A stretch of DNA of 64,000 nucleotides, from the NCBI GenBank assembly GCA_031292525.1, contig JARLGY010000036.1:1-64000 (forward strand), read 5' to 3'. A program made the position numbers and the translations under genes. The DNA comes from Flavipsychrobacter sp. (GTDB lineage Bacteria; Bacteroidota; Bacteroidia; Chitinophagales; Chitinophagaceae). The notes beneath the pieces are model-generated. The model had not been told where the DNA came from. It saw only the letters and a program-made list of their open reading frames with translations, and did no database searches. Shown piece after piece: positions 2-26,956 of the stretch (position 1 is the stretch's first letter; every line of letters begins with the position of its first letter).

Positions 2-1732
2 GCCAATGGTTGTCCCGGTGCATCCAGCCCTGTTATAGTAACGGTGAATGCGTTACCAATAGCTACAGCTGTGGCACAGGGGCCAACCAGTATATGCCCG
101 GGTGGTAGTGTTACCATAGCAGGTGGTGCAGGTGGCGATGCTACAGTGAAGTACCAGTGGTACCAGACAGGTGGTTTTGGTATCATCAATGGTGCTACTA
201 ATCCAACGTACACAGCCACCAACAACGGTAACTACTATGTGAAGATCACAGACACAGTAACCCATTGTACAGGAACTTCGGCGCCCAATGTTACAGTAAC
301 CATAGCGACTCCAACAGCAACTATAACCCCGGCAGGCAACCAGACACTTTGCCAGGGTACAACGGCTACATTACTTGCCAATGCAGGATCAAGCTATCAA
401 TGGTACTTGAATGGCACTACGCCGCTCACTAATACCCAGGCGCTTACTGCATCTGCAGGTGGCACCTATACAGTAGCGGTAACTAATACAGCAGGTTGTA
501 CAGCAACCTCTGCAGGTAAGACTATAACAGTGGTTCCAAATCCTGTGGCTACGGCAACAGCAGGCGGCCCAACTACATTCTGTGCCGGCGGTACCGTACT
601 ATTAAGTGCAGATACCGGGACTGGTCTATCTTACGTATGGACTCCGGGTGGTGCAACAACACAAACTATTAATGCATCTACAACTGGTACATATAGTGTA
701 ACAGTGACCAATACAAATAATTGCAGTACCATTTCGAACAGTGTAAATGTTACAGCGGTACCTTACCCTGTAGCCACTATTACCTCGGGTGGTTTGCCAA
801 CATCTATATGCACAGGCAGCAATGTGTTACTTACTGCAGGTCCTGTAGGCAACAACTACTTATGGTTGTTCAATGGTTCACCATTGCCTTATAATGATCC
901 AAACCGTACATCTATATCGTACCCTGCAAACCAGACAGGTACATATACTGTAACTGTTACCAACAGCACAGGTTGTGCAAGCACCACATCGGCTGCAAAC
1001 GCCATATCAGTGTTCGTAAATCCGATACCGACCATACAAACACTTGGACCAACTACATTCTGTTGGGGCAGCAGTGATATACTGCATGTAAATGCAGGTA
1101 CAGGTACGGGCCTTGCTTACCAGTGGTACAATAGAGGTTCTGCAATAGTAGGTGCAACCGGTCCAAACCTTACCGTGTTTGATTCGGGTTACTACAATGT
1201 GATCGTTACTGTTGTGGGCAGTTGCACACAAACATCCAACAATACCGATACAATAGTTGTAAACCAGCTTGCAGCACCGGTTATCACAGGTTCTCCGTAC
1301 AGCAGCCTCATTACATCATCTGGCAGTTATGCACACTACCAGTGGTACCTTGGTACTACACCGTTAGTGGGTGATACACTGAGCAGCGTGAATGTGTATG
1401 TGAATGGTAGTTATCACCTGGTGGTAACCAACAGCGAAGGTTGTACAGGTGTATCGAATGTGTTTGTAAAGAACACAACGGGTGTATCTAATGTATCTGG
1501 TAATAATGATATAACGATCTATCCAAACCCGGTATCTACTGTAGTACACATAGATGCAAGCATTCCTGTTGATGCTACTATCAGCACTATAGAAGGCAGG
1601 GAAGCGCTGAAACAGGCTGATGCTAAAACCATTGACCTGAGCTCACTTGCCAACGGCATCTACATGATACGCGTGTACGATAAAGCAGGTACCCTACTGA
1701 AAGTAGAAAAACTGGTGAAGGCTAGTAATTAA
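2..1732 (+). CDS. T9SS-exported Ig-like repeat adhesin, 3' part (5' end outside window)
   Basis: The frame is open from base 2 and the first possible start inside the window (GTG at 44) falls mid-repeat, so the gene begins upstream. At least six Ig-like beta-sandwich repeats are visible, each built around a YQWY/YVW/YLW core followed by a glycine-containing turn and ending in GxYxVxVTN-like strands with paired cysteines. The last ~75 residues form a type A T9SS sorting domain: a YPNPV motif, then strands ending in LANGIYMIRVYDKAG and a basic KLVKASN end. The protein is inferred to cross the outer membrane through T9SS and to be anchored or released after cleavage of that domain. Ligand unknown. 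A strong terminator follows. Confidence 0.9.
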   Translation, partial: ANGCPGASSPVIVTVNALPIATAVAQGPTSICPGGSVTIAGGAGGDATVKYQWYQTGGFGIINGATNPTYTATNNGNYYVKITDTVTHCTGTSAPNVTVTIATPTATITPAGNQTLCQGTTATLLANAGSSYQWYLNGTTPLTNTQALTASAGGTYTVAVTNTAGCTATSAGKTITVVPNPVATATAGGPTTFCAGGTVLLSADTGTGLSYVWTPGGATTQTINASTTGTYSVTVTNTNNCSTISNSVNVTAVPYPVATITSGGLPTSICTGSNVLLTAGPVGNNYLWLFNGSPLPYNDPNRTSISYPANQTGTYTVTVTNSTGCASTTSAANAISVFVNPIPTIQTLGPTTFCWGSSDILHVNAGTGTGLAYQWYNRGSAIVGATGPNLTVFDSGYYNVIVTVVGSCTQTSNNTDTIVVNQLAAPVITGSPYSSLITSSGSYAHYQWYLGTTPLVGDTLSSVNVYVNGSYHLVVTNSEGCTGVSNVFVKNTTGVSNVSGNNDITIYPNPVSTVVHIDASIPVDATISTIEGREALKQADAKTIDLSSLANGIYMIRVYDKAGTLLKVEKLVKASN

Positions 1733-1887: not shown

Positions 1888-2628
1888 TTACAGTCCTATA
1901 AAGCCTAGTACCTTCTCCAGGTCTTCAGGAGTATCAATACAATGGCTTTCGTAGGTGGTTGGGATGCACTTTATTTTAAATCCGGCTTCCAGCCAGCGTA
2001 GCTGCTCAAGAGACTCTGCTTGCTCTAATGGAGATACCGATAGCCTGGTGATCTGCTCCAGTATATCAGTGCGGTAGGCGTACATGCCTACATGGCGGTA
2101 ATAGTTGTGATGGAGATGCCAATCTTGCTCAGCAACACCTTTTATGAATGGTATCACCATACGACTAAAGTATAGCGCTTCCTGCCTGTGATTGAGTACA
2201 ATTTTTACTTCACCCTTATCAAACAGCATATCGTGGCTATGCACGGGTATCATTTGTGTGGCCAACTCTGTAGTGCCATCTGCAAGGGCTGCTGCCAGTT
2301 CATCTATCTGGGCTGGGTCAATAAATGGTTCGTCACCTTGTATATTGATGACATAGGTGTAATTGTTGTTGAGTTGTTGTAGTGCGTCGTAACAACGGTC
2401 CGTGCCGCTGGGATGATGTGCTGCGGTCATTACAGCCTCACCGCCGAAAGATAATACGTGATCGTATATCCTTGCGTCGTCGGTAGCTACAACCAGCCTG
2501 CTTAGCGCTTTGCTTTTGGCCGACTGTTCATACACCCGCTGTATCATGGTTTTACCCTTGATATCTGTTAAAGATTTGCCGGGAAAGCGGGATGATGCGT
2601 AACGTGCGGGGATAATGCCAACTATCAT
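1888..2628 (-). CDS. kdsB: 3-deoxy-manno-octulosonate cytidylyltransferase (CMP-Kdo or CMP-Kdo8N synthetase)
   Basis: Activates Kdo (or its 8-amino form) with CTP to give the CMP-sugar used by WaaA. The 246-residue length is normal for KdsB. The N-terminus carries the nucleotide-binding IPARYASSRFPGKSL signature (residues 6-20), and the NIQGDEPFID segment matches the family's metal/CTP site. It is the last gene of a six-gene minus-strand operon and overlaps the preceding phosphatase by 4 bp, indicating translational coupling. Because kdnA and kdnB head the same operon, the true substrate may be Kdo8N, as reported for the Shewanella enzyme. Sequence alone cannot separate the two specificities. 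Confidence 0.93.
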   Translation of the reverse strand: MIVGIIPARYASSRFPGKSLTDIKGKTMIQRVYEQSAKSKALSRLVVATDDARIYDHVLSFGGEAVMTAAHHPSGTDRCYDALQQLNNNYTYVINIQGDEPFIDPAQIDELAAALADGTTELATQMIPVHSHDMLFDKGEVKIVLNHRQEALYFSRMVIPFIKGVAEQDWHLHHNYYRHVGMYAYRTDILEQITRLSVSPLEQAESLEQLRWLEAGFKIKCIPTTYESHCIDTPEDLEKVLGFIGL

Positions 2629-3335
2629 TGTGGTGTTTGTAATGTTATCTGGGAATTGTTGCTGGTATAAAATGCGGTTTCTGGGATATTACGAAGCGCA
2701 AGGAAACGTTTGTAGGTATCTGTATAGTGCATGCGCTCAGTGATGGTTTCGTTGTAGTGCCCGCTAATGCCTGTTAATAGTTCTACTATTTCGCGCAAGG
2801 CCATATTATTGCCATCATTGGCCGTAATATAATCGGCAAGATGGTGCTCTTTTGCATAATTGATGAGTAAAGGATTTGCTGTACGGCCTACCATCAGCCG
2901 CAGTCCGCATTGTTCCGCTACAGAGAAATCAAGTACATCGTCAAAGAAGAATGCGATCTCTTCGGGCTGCAGGCTATGGGTGTGACATATGTGGTCTAAA
3001 GCCTCTTTTTTCCTGGGTACTTTGTAGTAAACCGCATTTAGATGCTCACGTTTTCCAAAGGTGTAAGCCGCCTTGTTGTGCTCACCCGTAATAACGCAGA
3101 ACACAGGTGCATGGCCCGTACGCAGATAATGGTTGAAGCGGAGCATGTTGGTGCCCATAGAATCGACCTCGCTAAACGGGCTCGAACCATTTTCGTCTTT
3201 AGCGCCGTTGTTGAACACACCATCCCAGTCGGTTACAAAGGCCCTGATCTTAAAAAGTTTCGCCTGCAACTCAGCAGGCGAAACCATAAATTGTCCTTTG
3301 AACTCCTTAGTTATATTCGGATATGGATTAGTCAT
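2625..3335 (-). CDS. KdsC-like HAD phosphatase, probably acting on Kdo 8-phosphate
   Basis: HAD-superfamily phosphatase inferred to remove the phosphate made by KdsA. HAD motif I is TDWDGVF with the nucleophile/acid pair Asp36 and Asp38. Motif II is the VITGE threonine, the basic residue lies in VPRKKEAL, and motif III is FFFDDVLDF. There is no large cap, as in the tetrameric KdsC group. At 236 residues it is longer than ordinary KdsC (about 160-190), with about 30 extra N-terminal residues and a C-terminal extension. The Trp between the two aspartates is unusual. It overlaps kdsB by 4 bp and the aldolase/CBS gene by 8 bp, so the job is inferred mainly from position. Confidence 0.75.
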   Translation of the reverse strand: MTNPYPNITKEFKGQFMVSPAELQAKLFKIRAFVTDWDGVFNNGAKDENGSSPFSEVDSMGTNMLRFNHYLRTGHAPVFCVITGEHNKAAYTFGKREHLNAVYYKVPRKKEALDHICHTHSLQPEEIAFFFDDVLDFSVAEQCGLRLMVGRTANPLLINYAKEHHLADYITANDGNNMALREIVELLTGISGHYNETITERMHYTDTYKRFLALRNIPETAFYTSNNSQITLQTPQ

Positions 3336-4341
3336 TTTTTAAGTCCTGTATGTCTATCATGCCAGATGGAGCACCGTTTTCGGTAACCAGTATGGTATCT
3401 ACACTTACTTTCTTAAATAATTGTGCCGCATCGTTGAGCAAAGAATTACCGTCTATGCTGATAGGTGTTTTGTATTCCAGGTCGCCCAGTTTTTTGGTGA
3501 GTATGTGCTCGCCATCGCTTTGCAATAACCTGCGCAGGTCGCCATCTGTAAACACGCCTTTCAAGCTACCATCTGCATTAGTTACAGTGATGCAACCAAA
3601 ACCGAAGTCCGTCATCTTTACAATGGCATCTTTCAGGTTAACGCTTTCGCTAATGGTAGGATTTACCTTGCTGATAGCATCTTTCACGCGCACGGTCATC
3701 AGGCGGGTATCGCTGAGGAACTGCTCGGTACCTATAGCAGTAAAATGGTTATCGGTAAGGGATTTCAATATTTTAAGCGGAACAGTAATAGTATGCACGC
3801 CCAGGTTGATGGCGTTACGCACATGCTCTGTAGTACGTACGGAGCTGAACATGATCTTGGTATCGTAACCGTAGTGGTTCACTGCTTTCACGCATTGGTC
3901 AACCAGTGCCAATGCGTCGTGACCCTGATCTTGCAAACGGCCAACAAGTGGGCATACATAAGTAGCGCCAGCGTGCATAGCCATGTAAGCCTGCTGCAAA
4001 GTGTACACCAGGTGCACATTTACCAAAAGACCATCGTTGCGCAGCATACGGCAAGCCCTTACACCTTCAAGCGATACTGGTATCTTAAACACAGTACGTG
4101 TAGGGTCAAGACCCAGGTTCAGTTGGCGGTGTGCTTCCTTTACTACATCTTCAGCAGTATCACCTAACGCTTCTATTTGCAGTACAGGCACTATTCCTGC
4201 CAGCTTTACTATCATGTCATCTATATTGGTAATACCCTCGCGCTGCATAAATGTAGGCGTAGTGGTAAGGCCATTTAAGAAACCTAATTTAAACCCCTCT
4301 TCTATTTCTTTGAGGTTGGCCGAATCAAGATATAATTCCAT
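3328..4341 (-). CDS. Fructose-6-phosphate aldolase/transaldolase-like domain fused to KdsD-type CBS pair
   Basis: Residues 1-215 are a small transaldolase/FSA-type TIM barrel. They keep the opening MELYLD with catalytic-type Asp6, the Schiff-base lysine in FKIPVS (Lys86), a Gln at position 55 where FSA has Gln59 and true transaldolases have Glu, Arg135 and Ser167. Three other FSA pocket residues differ: N28 to Thr, T109 to His110, Y131 to Leu132. Residues about 218-335 are two CBS domains. The first contains GVFTDGDLRR, the hallmark of arabinose-5-phosphate isomerase (KdsD/GutQ), but the SIS isomerase domain is absent. Placed between kdsA and the kdsC-like gene, it is inferred to supply or control arabinose 5-phosphate for KdsA. 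The family call is secure; the reaction is a hypothesis. Confidence 0.85.
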   Translation of the reverse strand: MELYLDSANLKEIEEGFKLGFLNGLTTTPTFMQREGITNIDDMIVKLAGIVPVLQIEALGDTAEDVVKEAHRQLNLGLDPTRTVFKIPVSLEGVRACRMLRNDGLLVNVHLVYTLQQAYMAMHAGATYVCPLVGRLQDQGHDALALVDQCVKAVNHYGYDTKIMFSSVRTTEHVRNAINLGVHTITVPLKILKSLTDNHFTAIGTEQFLSDTRLMTVRVKDAISKVNPTISESVNLKDAIVKMTDFGFGCITVTNADGSLKGVFTDGDLRRLLQSDGEHILTKKLGDLEYKTPISIDGNSLLNDAAQLFKKVSVDTILVTENGAPSGMIDIQDLKND

Positions 4342-4412: not shown

Positions 4413-5246
4413 TTACTTCCTGTACTTCACTTCAAGTGCATGCAGCTCTATTAATGGCTTCATGAACTCTTCAAAATCATTTACATTCAGCTGGCTGGCT
4501 GCGTCGCATAGCGCACTTGCGGGATCGGGGTGGGTTTCTATGAACACACCATCAACTCCTGATGCTACACCCGCACGACTCAATACAGGTAAAAATTCGC
4601 GTGCACCACCTTTTGCATCGGCACTAGGGATACCATACTTGCGTATGCTATGCGTAATATCGAACACTACAGGATAGCCGAGCAAACCCATATGGTAGAA
4701 ACTCCGTGGGTCTACCACAAGGTCGTTATAACCCATGGTATAGCCGCGTTCTGTAAGTATAATTTTGTCGTTACCAGCTTCAACACACTTAGTTACCGGG
4801 TGCTTCATATTCTCAGGAGCTAAAAACTGGCCATGTTTTATATTGATGACAGCGCCTGTTTTAGCAGCAGCAACCATAAGGCCTGTTTGCATACACAGGT
4901 AAGCTGGTATCTGCAATACATCGCACACTTCAGCAGCCGGGGCTGCCTGATCCGGGTAGTGTATATCTGTAAGCAGGGTAAAGCCAAACTGTTCCTTTAC
5001 TTTGGCCAATATCTTCAAGCCTTTTTCAAGACCCGGGCCATCGTAATATTTAAGGCTGCTGCGGTTGTCTTTACGGAAAGATGATTTGTAGATGATAGGG
5101 ATGTGCAGCCTTTCGCCCACTTCCTTCAGCTTTTCAGCCGTTTTCATCATGATCATCTCATCTTCTATCACACATGGCCCAGATATAACAAACAGCTCAT
5201 CTGCGCCGCAACTGATACCACCTACATTTATTTTCTTTATGCTCAT
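4413..5246 (-). CDS. kdsA: 3-deoxy-8-phosphooctulonate synthase (Kdo-8-P synthase)
   Basis: Condenses phosphoenolpyruvate with arabinose 5-phosphate to Kdo 8-phosphate in the cytoplasm. The 277 residues match KdsA throughout: the RSS and KTGAVINIKHGQF segments, and ITHS, IETHPDP and LCDAASQL near the C-terminus. Cys25 in ISGPCVIE, plus the His, Glu and Asp of those last motifs, fit the metal-dependent class (Aquifex type) rather than the metal-free class with Asn at that position. It starts 2 bp after kdnB stops and is followed by a 71-bp gap before the aldolase/CBS gene, all on one strand. Confidence 0.95.
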   Translation of the reverse strand: MSIKKINVGGISCGADELFVISGPCVIEDEMIMMKTAEKLKEVGERLHIPIIYKSSFRKDNRSSLKYYDGPGLEKGLKILAKVKEQFGFTLLTDIHYPDQAAPAAEVCDVLQIPAYLCMQTGLMVAAAKTGAVINIKHGQFLAPENMKHPVTKCVEAGNDKIILTERGYTMGYNDLVVDPRSFYHMGLLGYPVVFDITHSIRKYGIPSADAKGGAREFLPVLSRAGVASGVDGVFIETHPDPASALCDAASQLNVNDFEEFMKPLIELHALEVKYRK

Positions 5247-5248
5247 AA

Positions 5249-6328
5249 TTACAGTCTTTCGTACAATTTTTTAATGGTGTCTATGGTCACCTTTTCTTTC
5301 CAATCGGCGCCTATGGCGTGGTTCCACATGTGTGGCAGGTTGTAGGCAACTTCGGCCATAGCAGTTATCTGCTCATCGCTCCAGTTTTTTGACAATCCCT
5401 GTGGCAGGGTGACATTGTGCTTTACCAGCATGGATTTGAGCTCATTCACAGCATCGCCATAGTAGTCTTCCAGGTGCTGGAAGGCCAGGCAATTGGCGTA
5501 GCAATGTTTTTCGCCCAGTATTTTAGAGAGGCCGTAAGACAACGCGTGGCAAACACCCACTTCTGAATAAGTAAGGCTAAGGCCACCCATCATAGAGGCC
5601 ACCATTAGCTTGTCATCGTTCTCAGGGTTTTGGCCTGCATTAGGGCCTACATATACATCGCGGCACAGCTTCAGCGCCTGGTCGCCATAGGCAAGACTAT
5701 ATATATTATTCAATGTTCCGCATTCAGCTTCTATTGAATGTATATAAGTATCCATACCTGTGTACAGCCATTTATCTACCGGCACTGTGGCAGCCAGCTC
5801 GCTATCCAGTATTACCTGGTTAAACACGGTCCAGTCGCACTTTAAGCCCAGCTTTTTTACAGGGCCTGTAAGTACAGCAGTCATAGAAACCTCTGCACCT
5901 GTACCAGAAATAGTAGGTACGCCTAAGTGGTAGATGCCAGGCTTCTTAATAAGGTTAAGACCCTGGTAGAGCGTAGAAGACCCCTCGTTGGTAAACATGA
6001 GGGATACCGCTTTTGCAATATCCATAATGCTGCCGCCACCAATGCCTATAACACCTGCCGGTATTCCTTTCTCCGCGATTACCTCATCGCGAAGTGTATC
6101 TATCTGCTCTGTAGTTGGCTCGTGCGGGTCAACATCTATAAAACGTACTATATCCTGGGGGCCTGCGGGGATGCGTTGTTCAAGGTCTTTGCCCTTGAAG
6201 TAATTATCTACCACAAACAGGAAGAAGCGGTTGTTCTCATTTCTTTTTTCGGCCAGTATACCTTCCATTGCTGAAAAGCTACCCCTGCCAAAAACAACCT
6301 TATCAATGTTCTTAAAGTTCTTGTACAT
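5249..6328 (-). CDS. kdnB: Iron-containing alcohol dehydrogenase, 3-deoxy-octulosonate 8-oxidase (KdnB-like)
   Basis: Group III metal-dependent alcohol dehydrogenase. The NAD-binding GGGSIMDIAKA lies at residues 98-108. All four metal ligands are present: Asp193 and His197 (GMDTYIHS), His261 (GVCHALS) and His275 (GEKHCYANC). In Shewanella, KdnB oxidises the C8 hydroxyl of Kdo so that KdnA can transaminate it. The pairing with a DegT-type aminotransferase on one side and kdsA on the other supports that role here. It lies 31 bp after kdnA and 2 bp before kdsA. General Fe-ADH activity is certain; the Kdo substrate is inferred from gene order. Confidence 0.82.
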   Translation of the reverse strand: MYKNFKNIDKVVFGRGSFSAMEGILAEKRNENNRFFLFVVDNYFKGKDLEQRIPAGPQDIVRFIDVDPHEPTTEQIDTLRDEVIAEKGIPAGVIGIGGGSIMDIAKAVSLMFTNEGSSTLYQGLNLIKKPGIYHLGVPTISGTGAEVSMTAVLTGPVKKLGLKCDWTVFNQVILDSELAATVPVDKWLYTGMDTYIHSIEAECGTLNNIYSLAYGDQALKLCRDVYVGPNAGQNPENDDKLMVASMMGGLSLTYSEVGVCHALSYGLSKILGEKHCYANCLAFQHLEDYYGDAVNELKSMLVKHNVTLPQGLSKNWSDEQITAMAEVAYNLPHMWNHAIGADWKEKVTIDTIKKLYERL

Positions 6329-6359: not shown

Positions 6360-7568
6360 TTAAGATAATGCTGGTTCGCCAACTGCTGCTTTTACAGCCT
6401 TAGCAATATTATTGGCCAAGGTACGTACCTCGTCTTCTGTCCAGGTGCAGCGGATACCAAACGATATCAGGCGGCCCACCACTTCCTGGCTCTTAGGCAG
6501 GTGCAGGTTACCATAATCCTGGTGCTCGCCCAGCTGTGCGGTCAGTTTAGAAACGGTGCGCATCTGGTGTATATGGTCCCACTGGTTGATGAAGTGGTAC
6601 ATATTGGTGTACCAGTAGTTGAAACCGCCAACACTATTCTTGTTCAGCTCGTCCACCACACGCTTTGCAGTGGTCGTATCTGGCAGGAACATGTTCAGGA
6701 ATGTAGCCGAATCACCAGCAGGATCGGGTAGTGTAGAGAATGACACACCTTCCACCTGCGACAATACTTCGGTAAGTATGGCTTTGTTCTTACGGTTGGC
6801 TTCTCTTATTGCTGGTACCTTGCGGGTTTGCGCTACACCTATGGCTGCATGCAGCTCGCTAATGCGATAGTTGAAGCCCATTATTGGGTGCTGCTCCATA
6901 CCGCGGTTGTTGCCCACGTGGTCGTGGCCGTGGTCTGAGTAAGAGTCTGCGTATTTATAAACCTGCTCGTCGTTGGTAACTATTACACCACCTTCGCCGG
7001 CAGTTGCTATTTTAAAGAAATCGAAAGAGTAAGCGCCTGCTGCACCAAACAAACCGGTTGATGTGCCCTTGTAAGAAGCCGCAAAAGCCTGTCCTGCATC
7101 CTCAACCAGTATCAGGTTATGTTCTTTAACCACTTTCACTATGCTGTCCATGTCGGCCATACCACCGCACATGTGCACCAGGCACACAGCCTTGGTTTTT
7201 GGAGTGATGGCAGCTTTGATACCCTCTGCACTTAGGTCAAGTGTTTCATCTATTTCGGCAAATACCGGGGTAGCACCTATAAAGAACACAGCTTCAATAG
7301 TAGCTATATAAGTAAACGGAGGTACTATCACCTCATCACCTGCGCCTATGCCGGCTGCAGCCATTGCGGTAGCTATAGCTGTAGAACCGCTGCTAACAGC
7401 ATGAGAGAATTTGGCCCCGGTTACTTTTCTTACCTCAGCCTCAAATTCTTTAGCCTTCCAAATACCATTTCTTTGCTGGTCGTGATTGAAACGGAACAGT
7501 ATTCCTGTTTCCATCACATCATTTATTTCTTTACGCTCTTCGCTACCAAACAATTCTGTTCCGGGCAT
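6360..7568 (-). CDS. kdnA: PLP-dependent aminotransferase, 8-amino-3,8-dideoxy-octulosonate synthase (KdnA-like)
   Basis: DegT/DnrJ/EryC1-family sugar aminotransferase of 402 residues. The PLP-binding lysine is Lys186 (FDFFKIATAGEGG) and the pyridine-nitrogen aspartate is Asp157 (VEDAGQ). With KdnB it would convert Kdo to Kdo8N, using an amino acid as donor; KdnA of Shewanella uses glutamate. It is the first gene of the operon, preceded by a Bacteroidota -7 box. DegT enzymes act on many sugars, and the choice of KdnA rests on the adjacent iron-alcohol dehydrogenase plus the three Kdo genes downstream. Confidence 0.8.
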   Translation of the reverse strand: MPGTELFGSEERKEINDVMETGILFRFNHDQQRNGIWKAKEFEAEVRKVTGAKFSHAVSSGSTAIATAMAAAGIGAGDEVIVPPFTYIATIEAVFFIGATPVFAEIDETLDLSAEGIKAAITPKTKAVCLVHMCGGMADMDSIVKVVKEHNLILVEDAGQAFAASYKGTSTGLFGAAGAYSFDFFKIATAGEGGVIVTNDEQVYKYADSYSDHGHDHVGNNRGMEQHPIMGFNYRISELHAAIGVAQTRKVPAIREANRKNKAILTEVLSQVEGVSFSTLPDPAGDSATFLNMFLPDTTTAKRVVDELNKNSVGGFNYWYTNMYHFINQWDHIHQMRTVSKLTAQLGEHQDYGNLHLPKSQEVVGRLISFGIRCTWTEDEVRTLANNIAKAVKAAVGEPALS

Positions 7569-9787: not shown

Positions 9788-9990
9788 TTAAGACCATTCG
9801 CTATTCTTCGCGTTCACCCCCACATATATTCTATCTACTTCGCTATCGTTTTTAGTTTGATTCAATAACGCAGTAGTTTTTATACCTTCGGGTAACCCTA
9901 CCAATATACTGTTTACATTTTCTGTGCGTCAGCTGCAATGTTTTATTGTGGTTGTTGAGCCAGGTATTCCGTAATGAATTTTTAGAAAGC
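9788..9990 (-). pseudogene. Decayed 3' end of an unidentified gene
   Basis: This 343-bp gap (9678-10020) holds no intact gene. On the minus strand, 9788-9928 reads as a 46-residue protein-like stretch ending in VNAKNSEWS and TAA, with no start codon. Just upstream, in other frames, are KFITEYLAQQPQ and NIAADAQK, each cut by a stop. Joined with frameshifts, they look like one eroded C-terminus. I do not recognise the family. Chance cannot be excluded at this length. Confidence 0.35.
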
Positions 9991-10020
9991 AATACTTATA
10001 GTAAAATTATTTATTGGTAT

Positions 10021-12993
10021 ATGGATAGAATAATAAAACTTCATTTTCAATGCCTTGTATTACTTGCGGCATCGTTGTTAATGAGCACCCGGGCATCTGC
10101 TACACATATCTTTGGTATAGACTTGTACTATACGTATGTAAGTGGTAATACTTATACCATAAATATGGCAGTGTACGGCGATTGCTCCGCAGCTTCATCA
10201 GTTTTTACTACCCTATATACTGCTACGCCGGAAGTGCAGATAATAAATGGAAACTTCGTAACCCAAACAGTAAACCTGAACCCTATAAGCCCTGAAGGTA
10301 TTGAGGTGACACCGGTTTGTGCCAACGATACCAATAATACTACATGTACCAACGTGACAAATACTGTTCCCGGTGTAAGGAAGTTTACTTATTCAAGGAA
10401 TGTTACACTCAGCGGGCCATCGGCAAACTGGGTGTTTCATTTTGATGGGAATATGGGTGGTAACAGCTCTGCCGGGCGAAGCTCCACTATAACAAATATT
10501 TTAACGGGTGGCTCATCTATCATATCTCTGGATGCACAATTAAATAATGTTACTGCAGCAAATTCATCTTCTGTTTATACCACTATCCCAACACCTTTCT
10601 TTTGCGATAATGTGCCCGCAAACTTTAATCCTGGCGCTGTAGATCCTAACGGGGATAGCTTATCTTTTGCACTTGTACCGGGTATTGATGAAACAACCGG
10701 AAGTGCAGTTAATTATGTATCTCCATACACGGCAACCCAGCCATTGGCAGTTACTCCAGGGTCTTTTATTTTTAATTCATCCACAGGCCAGCTAACCTTT
10801 ACCCCCAATTTGATACAACGATCGTTGGTAGTATATACGGTTTCTGAATACAGGAACGGCATACTTGTAGGCACCAGCCAACGGGAGATGACCGTTGTTA
10901 CATTGGCATGCAACAATACCCCACCAACAGGGCGTATTTCAAACATTAGTGCATCAGGCCCCGGGGTGAATATAATTGACAGTACCCACCTAAGTGCATG
11001 TGGTAATGCAGGCGCGTTCTCATTCCATATCAGTCCGTTAGATTCCACTACTAATGTAACTATTACAGCAGCCGGGGTGCCTGCAGGTGCCACGTTCAAT
11101 GTAAGTAACAACACCACCACTACGGCGCAGGGTATTTTTGCATGGAACACAACAGGGGTGGCAGCGGGTACCTATACGTTTTACATTACCTTCAAGAGCG
11201 ATGCATGTCCGCTTGCCAGCACACAAACTGTGGCCTACAGTGTAATTGTATCTCCTACAGCAACACCTTCTATAGCGATAGCTATAACTGATACCACCAG
11301 CGTATTTTGTGCTGGAGCGCCAATGCACTTTGCCGCAACTGCTACCAATACTGGCACCAATCCATATTACCAGTGGAAAAAGAATGGCATAAATGTAGGT
11401 ACAGACACTACTGTATATACCAATGTAGCTGCGGCAAGTGGAGATGTGATTACTTGTGTACTTACATCTAACGCCCTTTGCTTAACTACCAATACTGCAA
11501 CCAGTAATGCTATAACAGCCCCGGTACATTCTTCAACAATACCCGTTGTTACTATAACAGATAATGCTGGGGCCATTATTTGTTCTGGTACACCTATAAC
11601 CTTTACGGCAAGTGCAATTGATACCGCTACTGCAGCCACTTACCAGTGGGAAAGAAATGGTGTTGCTATATCAGGGGCCACTAACCGTATTTATATAGAT
11701 TATAGTTTAGCCCAGGGAGATACAATTGTTTGCGTTGTGAACAGTAATGCACCTGTTTGCGCTATACCCGGTACGAGCCCTTATATAGCGCCTACTGTTT
11801 TTCCAGCTCCGGATACCACGGTTACAACATCAGGACTTATACATATTTGCCTTGGCGACAGTGTGACATTACAAGCTGCGGGAGTTGGAACCACTTATCA
11901 GTGGCAGAGGAATGGCGTAAATATTAATGGGGCAAATGCAACTACATACACTGTACATAGTACAGGCAATTATGCAGTCTATGTTTCAAATACTTATGGC
12001 TGTGCTGTTACTTCATCAGTTGTTCCTGTTACCATATCTCCTGTACCACCGGCACTACTCTCCAATATAGGTGGATACCTAAATATTTGTACAAACGACA
12101 GCCTGCTGCTTGGTGCTCCAGTTAGTTATACATACAGTTATGTCTATCAGTGGTACTGGGATGGTAACGTAATAAATGGTGCAACAAGTGCAGAATATAC
12201 CACAAGGACGGCGGGTGCATATCAGGTGACTGTGTCAGACAATCAATGCTTAAGTAAGTCGAATATTCTTACCGTAACCACAATACAGGCGCCTGTAGAT
12301 ACGCTGCTTTCTTATGGCCAAACCGTTATTTGCCCTGGAGGAGTAACCGGTGTTACCTTAGCAGGTGGCACTGCCAGCAATCCGGAATCTTACCTGTGGT
12401 ATAGAAACGGAACACCTATTCAGTCGGCTACAAGATCCAGTTACCTGGCACCAACAGTTGGTACCTATACTTTAAAAATAACCGACACTACAAATGGCTG
12501 CTCCTCTTATAGCAAGCCTGTATCTGTAACTTCTGGTACTATACCAGATCCGTCTATTTCATATGAATGGCCCTCATTTCAAACAGGTTTATTCAGCAAT
12601 TATCAATGGTACTATAATAATGTACCAATAACAGGTGCCACATCGGTAAACTACGCACCTACACAAAGTGGCGTGTACACAGTAATGGTTACAGACGCTA
12701 ACGGATGTATTGGTACATCTGCCAATTATTACTTTGCATATAGCGGCGTGGGTAACGTGTCTCTTACGGGCAGTGATGTAAGAATATATCCTAACCCCGC
12801 TAATGACATTGTTTATATAAATGCACCTGTGGCAGTAAACGCAGCTTTGTATGCAATGGACAGCAGGCTGATACAGAATGGGAAAAGCATAAAGCAACTG
12901 GATATTTCAGAACTTGCAAGCGGTGTTTACATGATAACGATAACCGACGAAAATAATATGGTTATCAAAAAAGATAAGCTGGTGAAGAATTAG
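10021..12993 (+). CDS. T9SS-exported multi-Ig-repeat surface protein
   Basis: The 990-residue product starts at the ATG that opens a clear signal peptide (MDRIIKLHFQCLVLLAASLL, Ala-rich cleavage site near ASATH). The N-terminal THIFGIDLYYTYVSGNTYTI region resembles the ATHIxGGELYY-type beta domain of many large Bacteroidota surface proteins. From about residue 430 there are six Ig-like repeats with YQWKKNG, YQWERNG, YQWQRNG, YQWYWDG, YLWYRNG and YQWYYNN cores. The C-terminus is a type A T9SS sorting domain (IYPNPANDIVYI, then ASGVYMITITDENN and KKDKLVKN). It is inferred to be a cell-surface adhesin or released protein. Longer non-ATG starts would bury the signal peptide and were rejected. Confidence 0.9.
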   Translation: MDRIIKLHFQCLVLLAASLLMSTRASATHIFGIDLYYTYVSGNTYTINMAVYGDCSAASSVFTTLYTATPEVQIINGNFVTQTVNLNPISPEGIEVTPVCANDTNNTTCTNVTNTVPGVRKFTYSRNVTLSGPSANWVFHFDGNMGGNSSAGRSSTITNILTGGSSIISLDAQLNNVTAANSSSVYTTIPTPFFCDNVPANFNPGAVDPNGDSLSFALVPGIDETTGSAVNYVSPYTATQPLAVTPGSFIFNSSTGQLTFTPNLIQRSLVVYTVSEYRNGILVGTSQREMTVVTLACNNTPPTGRISNISASGPGVNIIDSTHLSACGNAGAFSFHISPLDSTTNVTITAAGVPAGATFNVSNNTTTTAQGIFAWNTTGVAAGTYTFYITFKSDACPLASTQTVAYSVIVSPTATPSIAIAITDTTSVFCAGAPMHFAATATNTGTNPYYQWKKNGINVGTDTTVYTNVAAASGDVITCVLTSNALCLTTNTATSNAITAPVHSSTIPVVTITDNAGAIICSGTPITFTASAIDTATAATYQWERNGVAISGATNRIYIDYSLAQGDTIVCVVNSNAPVCAIPGTSPYIAPTVFPAPDTTVTTSGLIHICLGDSVTLQAAGVGTTYQWQRNGVNINGANATTYTVHSTGNYAVYVSNTYGCAVTSSVVPVTISPVPPALLSNIGGYLNICTNDSLLLGAPVSYTYSYVYQWYWDGNVINGATSAEYTTRTAGAYQVTVSDNQCLSKSNILTVTTIQAPVDTLLSYGQTVICPGGVTGVTLAGGTASNPESYLWYRNGTPIQSATRSSYLAPTVGTYTLKITDTTNGCSSYSKPVSVTSGTIPDPSISYEWPSFQTGLFSNYQWYYNNVPITGATSVNYAPTQSGVYTVMVTDANGCIGTSANYYFAYSGVGNVSLTGSDVRIYPNPANDIVYINAPVAVNAALYAMDSRLIQNGKSIKQLDISELASGVYMITITDENNMVIKKDKLVKN

Positions 12994-25705: not shown

Positions 25706-26956
25706 CTAATGTTCAAGATGTTCCTTCACATACCCGTCAATTATCCTTGTTGCACCTATATTCTGCTGCATAAAACTCTTCAGTTCTTCGTGTACGTGGT
25801 GGCGATATGGGATATCAAGGATGAATTTATTGATCACTTTTGCGCATTCATCCACATCATTTACCGGGAAGGCATATTGTAGCGATGCCAGTTTTACAGC
25901 CTCTACAAACTTTTTGTACACAGGGCCGAAAACTATGGGCAATCCAAACACCGCCGGTTCAAGTATGTTATGTATACCGCCTTTTTGGAAACCACCACCC
26001 ACATAGGCTAAGTTGCCATAAGCATACAGACTGCTGAGCATACCAATATTGTCTATGATCAATACTTTCTTTAAGTAATTAGCATCATCGTGTTGCAGGT
26101 TAGAGTAGCGGCAACACATAGTGCCAAACCGTTCCTGTATATTTTTTAAGTGCGGTTCGTCAATCTCATGGGGAGCTATAATCAGTTTCCAACTTTCGGG
26201 CAGGCAAGGCAGGCACTCAAAAAGCAATTCCTCATCTCCGGGCCATGTACTACCTGCAATGAGCACATCTGTATCTCCTTTGAATTTTTCAATAGCTGGA
26301 ATGGCCTTCAGGTTTTCTGCAATAGCAGATACACGATCGTAACGTGTATCGCCGGCTACAATTACATTTTCTGTTAGCCTGATCTTTTGCAAAAGATTCT
26401 TTGACTTCCAGTCCTGTACAAAAATATAAGTAAAGCAGCCCAGCATACGCCTGAATAAGCCGCCATACCACTTAAAGAAAGATTGTTCTTCGCGAAAGGC
26501 TGCTGATACGAGAAGGGTAGGAATGTTTTTTTTCTTTAACTGCTCGAGATAATAGTACCAGAATTCATATTTTACAAAAATGGCAAGTGACGGTTGCGCA
26601 ATAGTAATGAACTTTTTTGCATTGCGGCTACCGTCCATTGGCAGGTAATAAATATAGTCTGCGCCTTTATACCCTTTACATGAATCGTAACCAGAGGGGG
26701 AGAAGAATGTAAGTACTATCTTGTACTGCGGATATTGCTTTTTTATTTGTTCGATAAGCGGCCTTCCCTGCTCAAATTCGCCCAGCGATGAGCAATGTAT
26801 CCAAATCCTTTTTTCATTTGGCTTAAGCGCTTGCAATTGTCTTTGCCAGTTCTGCCTGCCGGTTACCCACTTGCGGGCTTTAGCATTGAACAGGCCATAA
26901 GCCTTAATGGCAGTTACATACAGCAGGAGGAAAAGATTGTATAATAACAGGGGCAT
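25706..26956 (-). CDS. waaA: 3-deoxy-D-manno-octulosonic acid transferase
   Basis: Transfers Kdo (here possibly Kdo8N) from its CMP form to lipid IVA at the inner membrane. 416 residues: N-terminal membrane anchor (1-22), GT-B fold with the catalytic glutamate in HCSSLGEFEQGRPL (Glu60), SAAFREEQSFFKWYGG, and in the second half VAGDTRYDRV, APHEIDEPH and the YVGGGFQKGGIHNILEPA donor-site signature. It is unlinked to the kds/kdn operon 18 kb away but completes that pathway. A TAnnTTTG box lies 5 nt before the ATG. Confidence 0.95.
   Translation of the reverse strand: MPLLLYNLFLLLYVTAIKAYGLFNAKARKWVTGRQNWQRQLQALKPNEKRIWIHCSSLGEFEQGRPLIEQIKKQYPQYKIVLTFFSPSGYDSCKGYKGADYIYYLPMDGSRNAKKFITIAQPSLAIFVKYEFWYYYLEQLKKKNIPTLLVSAAFREEQSFFKWYGGLFRRMLGCFTYIFVQDWKSKNLLQKIRLTENVIVAGDTRYDRVSAIAENLKAIPAIEKFKGDTDVLIAGSTWPGDEELLFECLPCLPESWKLIIAPHEIDEPHLKNIQERFGTMCCRYSNLQHDDANYLKKVLIIDNIGMLSSLYAYGNLAYVGGGFQKGGIHNILEPAVFGLPIVFGPVYKKFVEAVKLASLQYAFPVNDVDECAKVINKFILDIPYRHHVHEELKSFMQQNIGATRIIDGYVKEHLEH

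Follow-up and report, generated by a model that had tools for sequence, protein, structure and literature searches.

The 64,000-nucleotide stretch analysed here (the window; contig JARLGY010000036.1 of Flavipsychrobacter sp., GenBank assembly GCA_031292525.1) encodes, next to kdsA, a fusion of a transaldolase-family barrel with a CBS pair of the kind carried by the arabinose-5-phosphate isomerase KdsD. The fusion (337 amino acids, ATG start, 3328..4341, minus strand) very probably replaces KdsD, because the two genes exclude each other across genomes, the fusion co-occurs with a variant KdsA (KdsA'), and its catalytic lysine is lost where kdsA is absent. On balance it is probable that the fusion took over the job of KdsD, the supply of an aldose phosphate, most likely arabinose 5-phosphate (A5P), to this co-evolved KdsA at the start of 3-deoxy-D-manno-oct-2-ulosonate (Kdo) synthesis.

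Domain architecture and fold of the fusion

Residues 3-201 (3739..4335, minus strand) match Pfam TAL_FSA (PF00923, E 9.2e-35, 120.8 bits against a cut-off of 27), and the pocket alignment and fold superposition described below agree with this assignment. Two CBS stretches are matched by Pfam in the C-terminal half, both on the minus strand. CBS 1 (3520..3687) includes the motif GVFTDGDLRR (residues 262-271, at 3529-3558), and CBS 2 (3337..3471) reaches 22.7 bits on its own against a Pfam cut-off of 24. Both are also covered by PDB sequence matches, the top three for this half being the CBS pairs of A5P isomerases (4o9k at 7e-13, 3k2v and 3fna). The best NCBIfam model on this side is KpsF (TIGR00393, 57.5 bits), which matches residues 214-322, the CBS half only. 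A Pfam scan found no SIS domain in the fusion, which does not qualify as a full-length KdsD/KpsF (more than 203.7 bits to TIGR00393 together with a SIS domain). A first-pass annotation of the window had described an aldolase barrel in place of the SIS isomerase domain on the CBS pair of an A5P isomerase, and each part of this description is borne out.

The fusion was identified in 47 of 247 genomes of the host's class (completeness >= 90%); 46 of these copies are full length and 1 is cut at a contig end (G246). We therefore rejected chance or a frameshift artefact as its origin. Further relatives came from a related-locus scan beyond the class, which used one protein query and kept the best 80 of 152 relatives. 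Together with the window and 40 class-genome copies, these loci give 121 sequences from partly overlapping sources. GVFTDGDLRR is exact in 58 of the 121, and the others carry a close variant, judged from the near-invariant G262, F264-G267 and R270. The scan loci have Bacteroidota titles except for one (L046) labelled Azovibrio restrictus, a proteobacterium. This locus carries a Bacteroidota operon with a fusion at 80% identity and is probably a mis-binned or mislabelled metagenome-assembled genome. In a phylum sample the fusion was present in 5 of 296, all from the same class, and a plasmid search for it gave no match at E <= 1e-40.

An AlphaFold2 model of the fusion, built from 34 sequences, has a mean predicted local distance difference test of 87.7 and a predicted template modelling score of 0.59, the latter leaving the placement of the barrel relative to the CBS pair unsure. 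The nearest solved structure to the barrel is the small transaldolase 3r8r (Z 28.8, root-mean-square deviation 1.3, 194 aligned), and structures of fructose-6-phosphate aldolase (FSA) score slightly lower (4rxf, an FSA mutant, Z 27.3, deviation 1.6 over 193; 1l6w, Z 27.0, deviation 7.3 over 206). The CBS tree (whose single outgroup row has a very long branch) and the long-branched barrel tree were used only for the monophyly of the fusion. The domain swap, a transaldolase barrel joined to a KdsD-type CBS pair, is well supported by these comparisons.

Mutual exclusion of the fusion and kdsD

A search of the host genome (98.8% complete) with the SIS profile (E <= 0.001) revealed no SIS-CBS kdsD, the presence of which the first-pass annotation had named as one of two results that would speak against its proposal. 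The five SIS matches of this genome, two of them in one 616-amino-acid frame read as GlmS and the others in MurQ, GmhA and a PGI/PMI (phosphoglucose/phosphomannose isomerase), all belong to other proteins as read, and we rejected a kdsD elsewhere in the genome on this ground.

The same 247 genomes were searched for the fusion, KpsF/KdsD and KdsA. Among the 188 with kdsA, kdsD alone is present in 144, the fusion alone in 41, both in one (G225) and neither in two (G013 and G234), so that fusion and kdsD are mutually exclusive in 185 of 188. The fusion is present in 42 of the 188 kdsA genomes sampled, and 41 of these 42 lack kdsD, a check that the first-pass annotation had proposed. In the two genomes with neither, the kdsA match of G013 is weak (7e-54, probably a 3-deoxy-D-arabino-heptulosonate-7-phosphate synthase, kept in the count) and the assembly of G234 consists of about 250 contigs.

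For these counts kdsA was accepted at E <= 1e-50 (188 genomes, 179 of them above the family cut-off) and kdsD at E <= 1e-20 (153 genomes, 137 above the cut-off). Three weak kpsF matches (G004, 2.8e-22; G109, 2.5e-21; G047, 5.9e-21) were dropped as presumed CBS halves of fusions. The 150 counted kdsD genomes therefore include 13 below the cut-off, several of them SIS-only. A Fisher test of the exclusion gives p = 8e-38, a value that ignores shared ancestry. Five families contain both fusion and kdsD genomes, which suggests several switches between the two states.

Another 50 class genomes (e.g., loci L201-L219) lack kdsA (E <= 1e-50), kdsD and the fusion altogether. KdtA/WaaA was searched for in 244 of the 247 genomes and KdsB in 217; within the KdsB sample, KdsB is present in 42 of 44 of these genomes. 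They may have a third way of feeding Kdo transfer, or use another sugar. No candidate synthase was seen among the recurring genes of 20 kdsB neighbourhoods (19 from these genomes and one from a degenerate-fusion genome) or in six inspected gene by gene. Of the genomes whose fusion is non-degenerate, 40 were sampled for KdtA and 37 have it; its presence alone is no proof of a route, because it is also found in 46 of the 50 genomes without kdsA, kdsD and fusion.

Active-site conservation with and without kdsA

In all 121 related sequences Asp6, Thr26, Thr27, Thr28, Glu57, Lys86 and Asn108 are invariant, as are His110, Cys130, Leu132, Arg135, Ser166, Ser167 and Arg169. Five genomes of one family have a fusion and no kdsA at E <= 1e-50, and in all five copies Lys86 is replaced by Arg or Ser. 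Replacements in these copies also affect Thr28, Asn108, His110, Cys130, Leu132, Arg135 and Arg169; Glu57 is kept in 5/5, Ser167 in 3/5 and Asp6 in 2/5. The comparison of 121 intact with five degenerate copies thus indicates that the active site is kept with KdsA and lost without it. The contig-end cut in G246 hides its Asp6 and Lys86, and this genome is counted among the 42 with a non-degenerate fusion.

The degenerate fusions (L101-L105, from G047, G163, G111, G082 and G139) adjoin a protein of 571-616 amino acids and a gene that appears phosphatase-like by eye. They have perhaps been retained as a CBS sensor. One of these genomes (G139) has a SIS-type match, again without kdsA.

A dedicated KdsA

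The gene preceding the fusion encodes KdsA' (4413..5246, minus strand), which scores 333.8 bits to TIGR01362 against a cut-off of 314 alongside 18 diagnostic substitutions at otherwise conserved positions that separate it from canonical KdsA. These include the motif changes KANR to KDNR, RQT to MQT, KKGQF to KHGQF, THSLQ to THSIR and SDG to CDA. In a tree, a single clade (100/100) unites 39 KdsA rows from fusion carriers and separates them from 11 canonical rows. The tree holds the 11 usable of 19 canonical loci, one in four of the fusion-side scan loci and the host twice among the 39, with the second kdsA of G143 not placed.

Across the 247 genomes, KdsA' (E <= 1e-95) is present in 41 of the 42 whose fusion is non-degenerate and in none of the 205 others; the sole miss, G080, shows a partial match at a contig end. 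This distribution points to two modules, KdsA with KdsD and KdsA' with the fusion. Two fusion genomes, G109 (L151) and G143 (L199), have a second kdsA match; that of G109 is of the canonical type, with no kdsD counted in this genome.

Judged from its sequence, KdsA' may be tuned in its handling of A5P or may use a different aldehyde. The second possibility would mean that fusion and KdsA' work on another aldose phosphate and make a relative of Kdo. A separate clade with 18 diagnostic changes, KANR to KDNR, RQT to MQT and THSLQ to THSIR among them, would agree with a different product, and among the matches listed the KdsB proteins of 14 fusion genomes are closer to that of the window (60-73% identity) than those of any kdsD genome (45-57%). 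Against it, also among the matches listed, the KdsB proteins of 17 other fusion genomes (46-57%) fall within the kdsD-genome range (the identities cover 31 fusion genomes besides the host), and the adjacent KdnA and KdnB are similar to enzymes whose names refer to an action on Kdo. Moreover, the key residues of Neisseria KdsA, which according to PMC6650799 include Lys50, Lys55, Asn57, Arg58 and Lys133, appear by motif to be kept in KdsA' as Lys54, Lys59, Asn61, Arg62 and Lys137. We regard a different product as quite unlikely. The lack of a clean split in KdsB is a weak argument for a later pathway shared by the two modules.

The barrel pocket

We aligned the barrel with E. coli FsaA, with TalB and with the host's own transaldolase. 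Asp6 and Lys86 (codon 4084..4086, minus strand) fall on the catalytic Asp and Lys that FsaA and TalB share, Lys86 taking the position of the Schiff-base lysine (FsaA Lys85, TalB Lys132). The first-pass annotation had named Asp6, Lys86 and Gln55 as an intact catalytic set. The first two stand; Gln55 had been misaligned and pairs with FsaA Phe57 and TalB Ser94. The true position is that of Glu57 (codon 4171..4173, minus strand), which occupies the catalytic acid/base site held by Gln59 in FSA and Glu96 in TalB, and is of the transaldolase type.

The first-pass annotation had also called the barrel FSA-like. Its pocket is not, with Glu57, Asn108 and Leu132 in place of FSA Gln59, Leu107 and Tyr131. 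Asn108 is also Asn in TalB, and at position 132 TalB has Phe and FsaA its proton shuttle, Tyr131. Thr28 is Asn in all three comparators, and His110 (codon 4012..4014, minus strand) is Thr in all three. Cys130 corresponds to Ser176 in TalB and Ala129 in FsaA, and small residues stand in all three comparators where the fusion has Phe165 and Ser166. Our alignment thus agrees that Thr28, His110 and Leu132 are changed, as noted at first, and adds Cys130 and Ser166. Arg135, Ser167 and Arg169 lie at the presumed acceptor-phosphate positions of TalB. PMC3962226 describes this phosphate as bound by two Arg and one Ser, of which it names R181.

Thr28, His110, Cys130, Leu132 and Ser166 are present in 12/12 sampled fusions, and the same five positions are Asn, Thr, Ser, Phe and Ala in 20/20 standalone transaldolases (19 from class genomes and the host copy; a 21st row, from G031, was mis-extracted, was the only one to deviate at these positions and was left out). 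The fusion scores 161.4 bits to the fructose-6-phosphate aldolase model TIGR00875, under its equivalog cut-off of 245.95, and has Glu57 and Leu132 where FSA has Gln59 and Tyr131. Of the classical transaldolase set Asn35, Glu96, Thr156 and Phe178 (TalB numbering), one of four is kept (Glu57), the others being Thr28, His110 and Leu132. PMC13259622 gives Asp6 and Asn28 as the donor contacts of FSA and Gln59-Thr109-Tyr131 as its catalytic-water site; the fusion differs at one of the two contacts and at all three water-site positions. By this residue comparison with FsaA, TalB and the host transaldolase, the pocket thus matches neither FSA nor a classical transaldolase.

These differences bear on the possibility that the fusion is a normal pentose-phosphate-pathway transaldolase with newly gained Kdo-dependent regulation. 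Its transaldolase fold and Glu57 would be accounted for. The host already has two other TAL_FSA genes, however, none of the 20 standalone transaldolases compared has the residue of the fusion at any of the five pocket positions, and the exclusion of kdsD would be left unexplained, which makes an ordinary transaldolase highly improbable.

His110, found in 121/121 fusions and absent from 20/20 standalone transaldolases, would also suit a repurposed isomerase that interconverts ribulose 5-phosphate and A5P, with Glu57, His110 and Lys86 in an enediol mechanism like that of triose isomerase. Such an enzyme would catalyse the same reaction as the displaced KdsD, on a common substrate. It would have no need for Asp6, Asn108 and the whole Schiff-base set, all of them invariant, and a lysine Schiff base is itself incapable of the ketose-aldose shift. 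We consider isomerisation distinctly unlikely.

Proposed reaction

The position of TalB Ser176 and FSA Ala129 governs the preference for dihydroxyacetone, according to PMC3962226. Thr28 in place of Asn28, together with Cys130, would fit what is expected of a donor without a hydroxymethyl group, i.e., glycolaldehyde or an aldose. Because the changes at Asn28 and Ser176/Ala129 fit a donor lacking the C1 hydroxymethyl, we favour Schiff-base chemistry on a glycolaldehyde unit, and carbon-carbon bond chemistry of the Schiff-base type is quite probable for the fusion.

We infer the substrates, product and feedback of the fusion as follows. A Schiff base would link Lys86 to C1 of a two-carbon glycolaldehyde unit, with Asp6 and Glu57/His110 moving protons. 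The enamine would add to glyceraldehyde 3-phosphate (G3P), gripped by Arg135, Ser167 and Arg169, to give A5P, which KdsA' would remove irreversibly using phosphoenolpyruvate. On build-up of cytidine monophosphate-Kdo (CMP-Kdo), or of CMP-Kdo8N if the sugar is 8-amino-Kdo (Kdo8N), the CBS pair would shut the barrel. KdsD-type CBS pairs are thought to sense CMP-Kdo, which we take to be the ligand of 4o9k. For E. coli FsaA, PMC6298115 and PMC9947464 report the joining of glycolaldehyde and G3P to A5P, with a KM of 0.2 mM and a kcat of 16 per s for the glycolaldehyde condensation. PDB entry 3upb is, by its title, a transaldolase in covalent complex with A5P. The first-pass annotation had proposed an isomerase-independent route to A5P from these two substrates. 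Its replacement of KdsD is well supported by the exclusion in 185 of 188 kdsA genomes; its chemistry is a plausible candidate, one of several that fit, and we put forward free glycolaldehyde and G3P as the specific substrates only tentatively.

A retro-aldol C2-epimerase would make free glycolaldehyde unnecessary. Ribose 5-phosphate would be opened at C2-C3 through the Lys86 Schiff base and re-closed on G3P with C2 inverted, giving A5P, while the glycolaldehyde enamine stays bound. TalB F178Y, unlike FsaA, forms ribose 5-phosphate as a by-product of A5P synthesis according to PMC9947464, so that either C2 epimer is within reach of a transaldolase scaffold, and the pocket of the fusion is of the transaldolase type. 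The altered donor hydroxymethyl contacts would suit aldose substrates as well. Epimerisation demands, on the other hand, an enamine that presents both faces, and it lacks a precedent in the family: we know of no class I aldolase of the transaldolase/FSA family that acts as an epimerase. It appears unlikely. Epimerase, isomerase and the favoured glycolaldehyde condensation would all yield A5P.

Several points weigh against a fusion that makes A5P by condensation in place of KdsD. The same pattern of exclusion would arise if a single ancestral module had been inherited in one piece. G225 carries both fusion and kdsD, and contamination was rejected as the reason, its GC content (0.408 vs 0.417) and tetranucleotide correlation (0.96) lending it no support; the exception stands. 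The substrate of KdsA' may not be A5P, because 18 conserved positions are changed. Glu57 and Asn108 are residues of the transaldolase type, and Leu takes the place of Tyr131, the proton shuttle in FSA. A weak point is where free glycolaldehyde would come from: folate synthesis alone would probably supply too little, no glycolaldehyde-producing gene occurs among the 28 commonest neighbour families of the fusion, and none is visible in its operon.

With these points weighed, we see about an even chance that the fusion is part of a second complete entry into Kdo synthesis, in which a CBS-regulated, transaldolase-derived synthase and a re-tuned KdsA' are co-inherited and exchanged, as one module, for KdsA and KdsD.

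Operon and genomic neighbourhood

The fusion lies in an operon with the transcription order kdnA, kdnB, kdsA, fusion, kdsC-like HAD gene and kdsB, all on the minus strand. The KdnA-like 8-aminotransferase of the DegT family (6360..7568) has 5k8b as its best PDB match (E 2.6e-131), and the KdnB-like 8-oxidase of the iron-dependent alcohol dehydrogenase family (5249..6328) has 5k8c (E 1.2e-119). Downstream, the divergent KdsC-like HAD phosphatase (2625..3335), whose start overlaps the end of the fusion by 8 bases, matches KdsC PRK09484 at E 2.1e-12, below the cut-off, and gave no Pfam match at E <= 1. The CMP-Kdo synthetase KdsB (1888..2628) scores 219.5 bits to TIGR00466. The Kdo transferase KdtA/WaaA is encoded elsewhere in the window (25706..26956, minus strand; PF04413, E 2.8e-45). 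Large repetitive secreted-type proteins with similar, by eye sorting-domain-like, C-terminal ends flank the region (window 44-1732 and 9946-12993).

Within 7.5 kb of the fusion in 126 related loci, some on short contigs and drawn from two overlapping sources, so that the counts are not independent, we detected HAD in 85, KdsA in 77, KdnB in 57, KdnA in 55, KdsB in 54 and a KdtA-like protein (by eye) in 23. An open reading frame of about 138 amino acids, PIN-like by eye, lies between kdsA and the fusion in 11 of the 126 (e.g., L043), and many loci hold some other stretch of about 700 bases there. Phosphoglycerate kinase is encoded immediately upstream of the fusion in six loci.

KdnA and KdnB make 8-amino-Kdo in Shewanella, and the PDB molecule names agree with those activities. 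Judging by these two genes, the lipopolysaccharide of the bacterium probably contains 8-amino-Kdo. A tie of the fusion itself to Kdo8N was rejected, the 47 fusion and 36 kdnB genomes (E <= 1e-60) sharing only 30: kdnB is absent from 17 of the 47, five of them degenerate, and present in six genomes without the fusion. One genome (G188) has KdnB without kdsA, kdsD or fusion.

Comparison with known systems

The synthesis of the outer-membrane sugar Kdo is usually considered to be the same in all Gram-negative bacteria, and the module described here would be a second, nearly mutually exclusive one for its first step. No description of the fusion or of a KdsD substitute was found in the open literature searched, where subscription papers are mostly absent. 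To our knowledge, A5P synthase activity of the class I type is known only from FSA and an engineered transaldolase. If our proposal is true, the fusion would represent a class I "arabinose-5-phosphate synthase" of natural origin that uses carbon-carbon bond chemistry in place of the KdsD isomerisation. It would explain how these Bacteroidota manage without KdsD, by a natural and so far undescribed path to a sugar that is essential, would be useful to synthetic biology as a natural A5P-forming enzyme, and would offer a clean example of one sensor domain common to two enzyme folds of the same pathway.

Among known enzymes, KdsD/KpsF shares with the fusion the CBS pair with its TDGDLRR-type motif and the genomic role beside kdsA, and differs in having a SIS isomerase domain where the fusion has the barrel. 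The Kdo8N enzymes KdnA (5k8b) and KdnB (5k8c) of Shewanella are close homologues of the neighbours of the fusion and not of the fusion itself. Bifunctional transaldolase/PGI fusions also combine a transaldolase barrel with an extra domain, the partner being PGI instead of CBS; the host genome has one open reading frame of this type (L018, 864 amino acids, PGI part read by eye). E. coli FsaA shares family and Schiff-base lysine and, according to PMC6298115 and PMC9947464, makes the proposed product from glycolaldehyde and G3P, whereas its Gln59, Leu107 and Tyr131 are Glu57, Asn108 and Leu132 in the fusion. The small (subfamily IV) transaldolases (3r8r of B. subtilis, 3s0c of T. acidophilum) have in common with the fusion the barrel fold, the catalytic Asp/Glu/Lys and the phosphate-binding Arg/Arg/Ser, and the fusion departs from them by Asn28 to Thr, Thr to His110, Ser to Cys130, Phe to Leu132, Ala to Ser166 and its C-terminal CBS pair.

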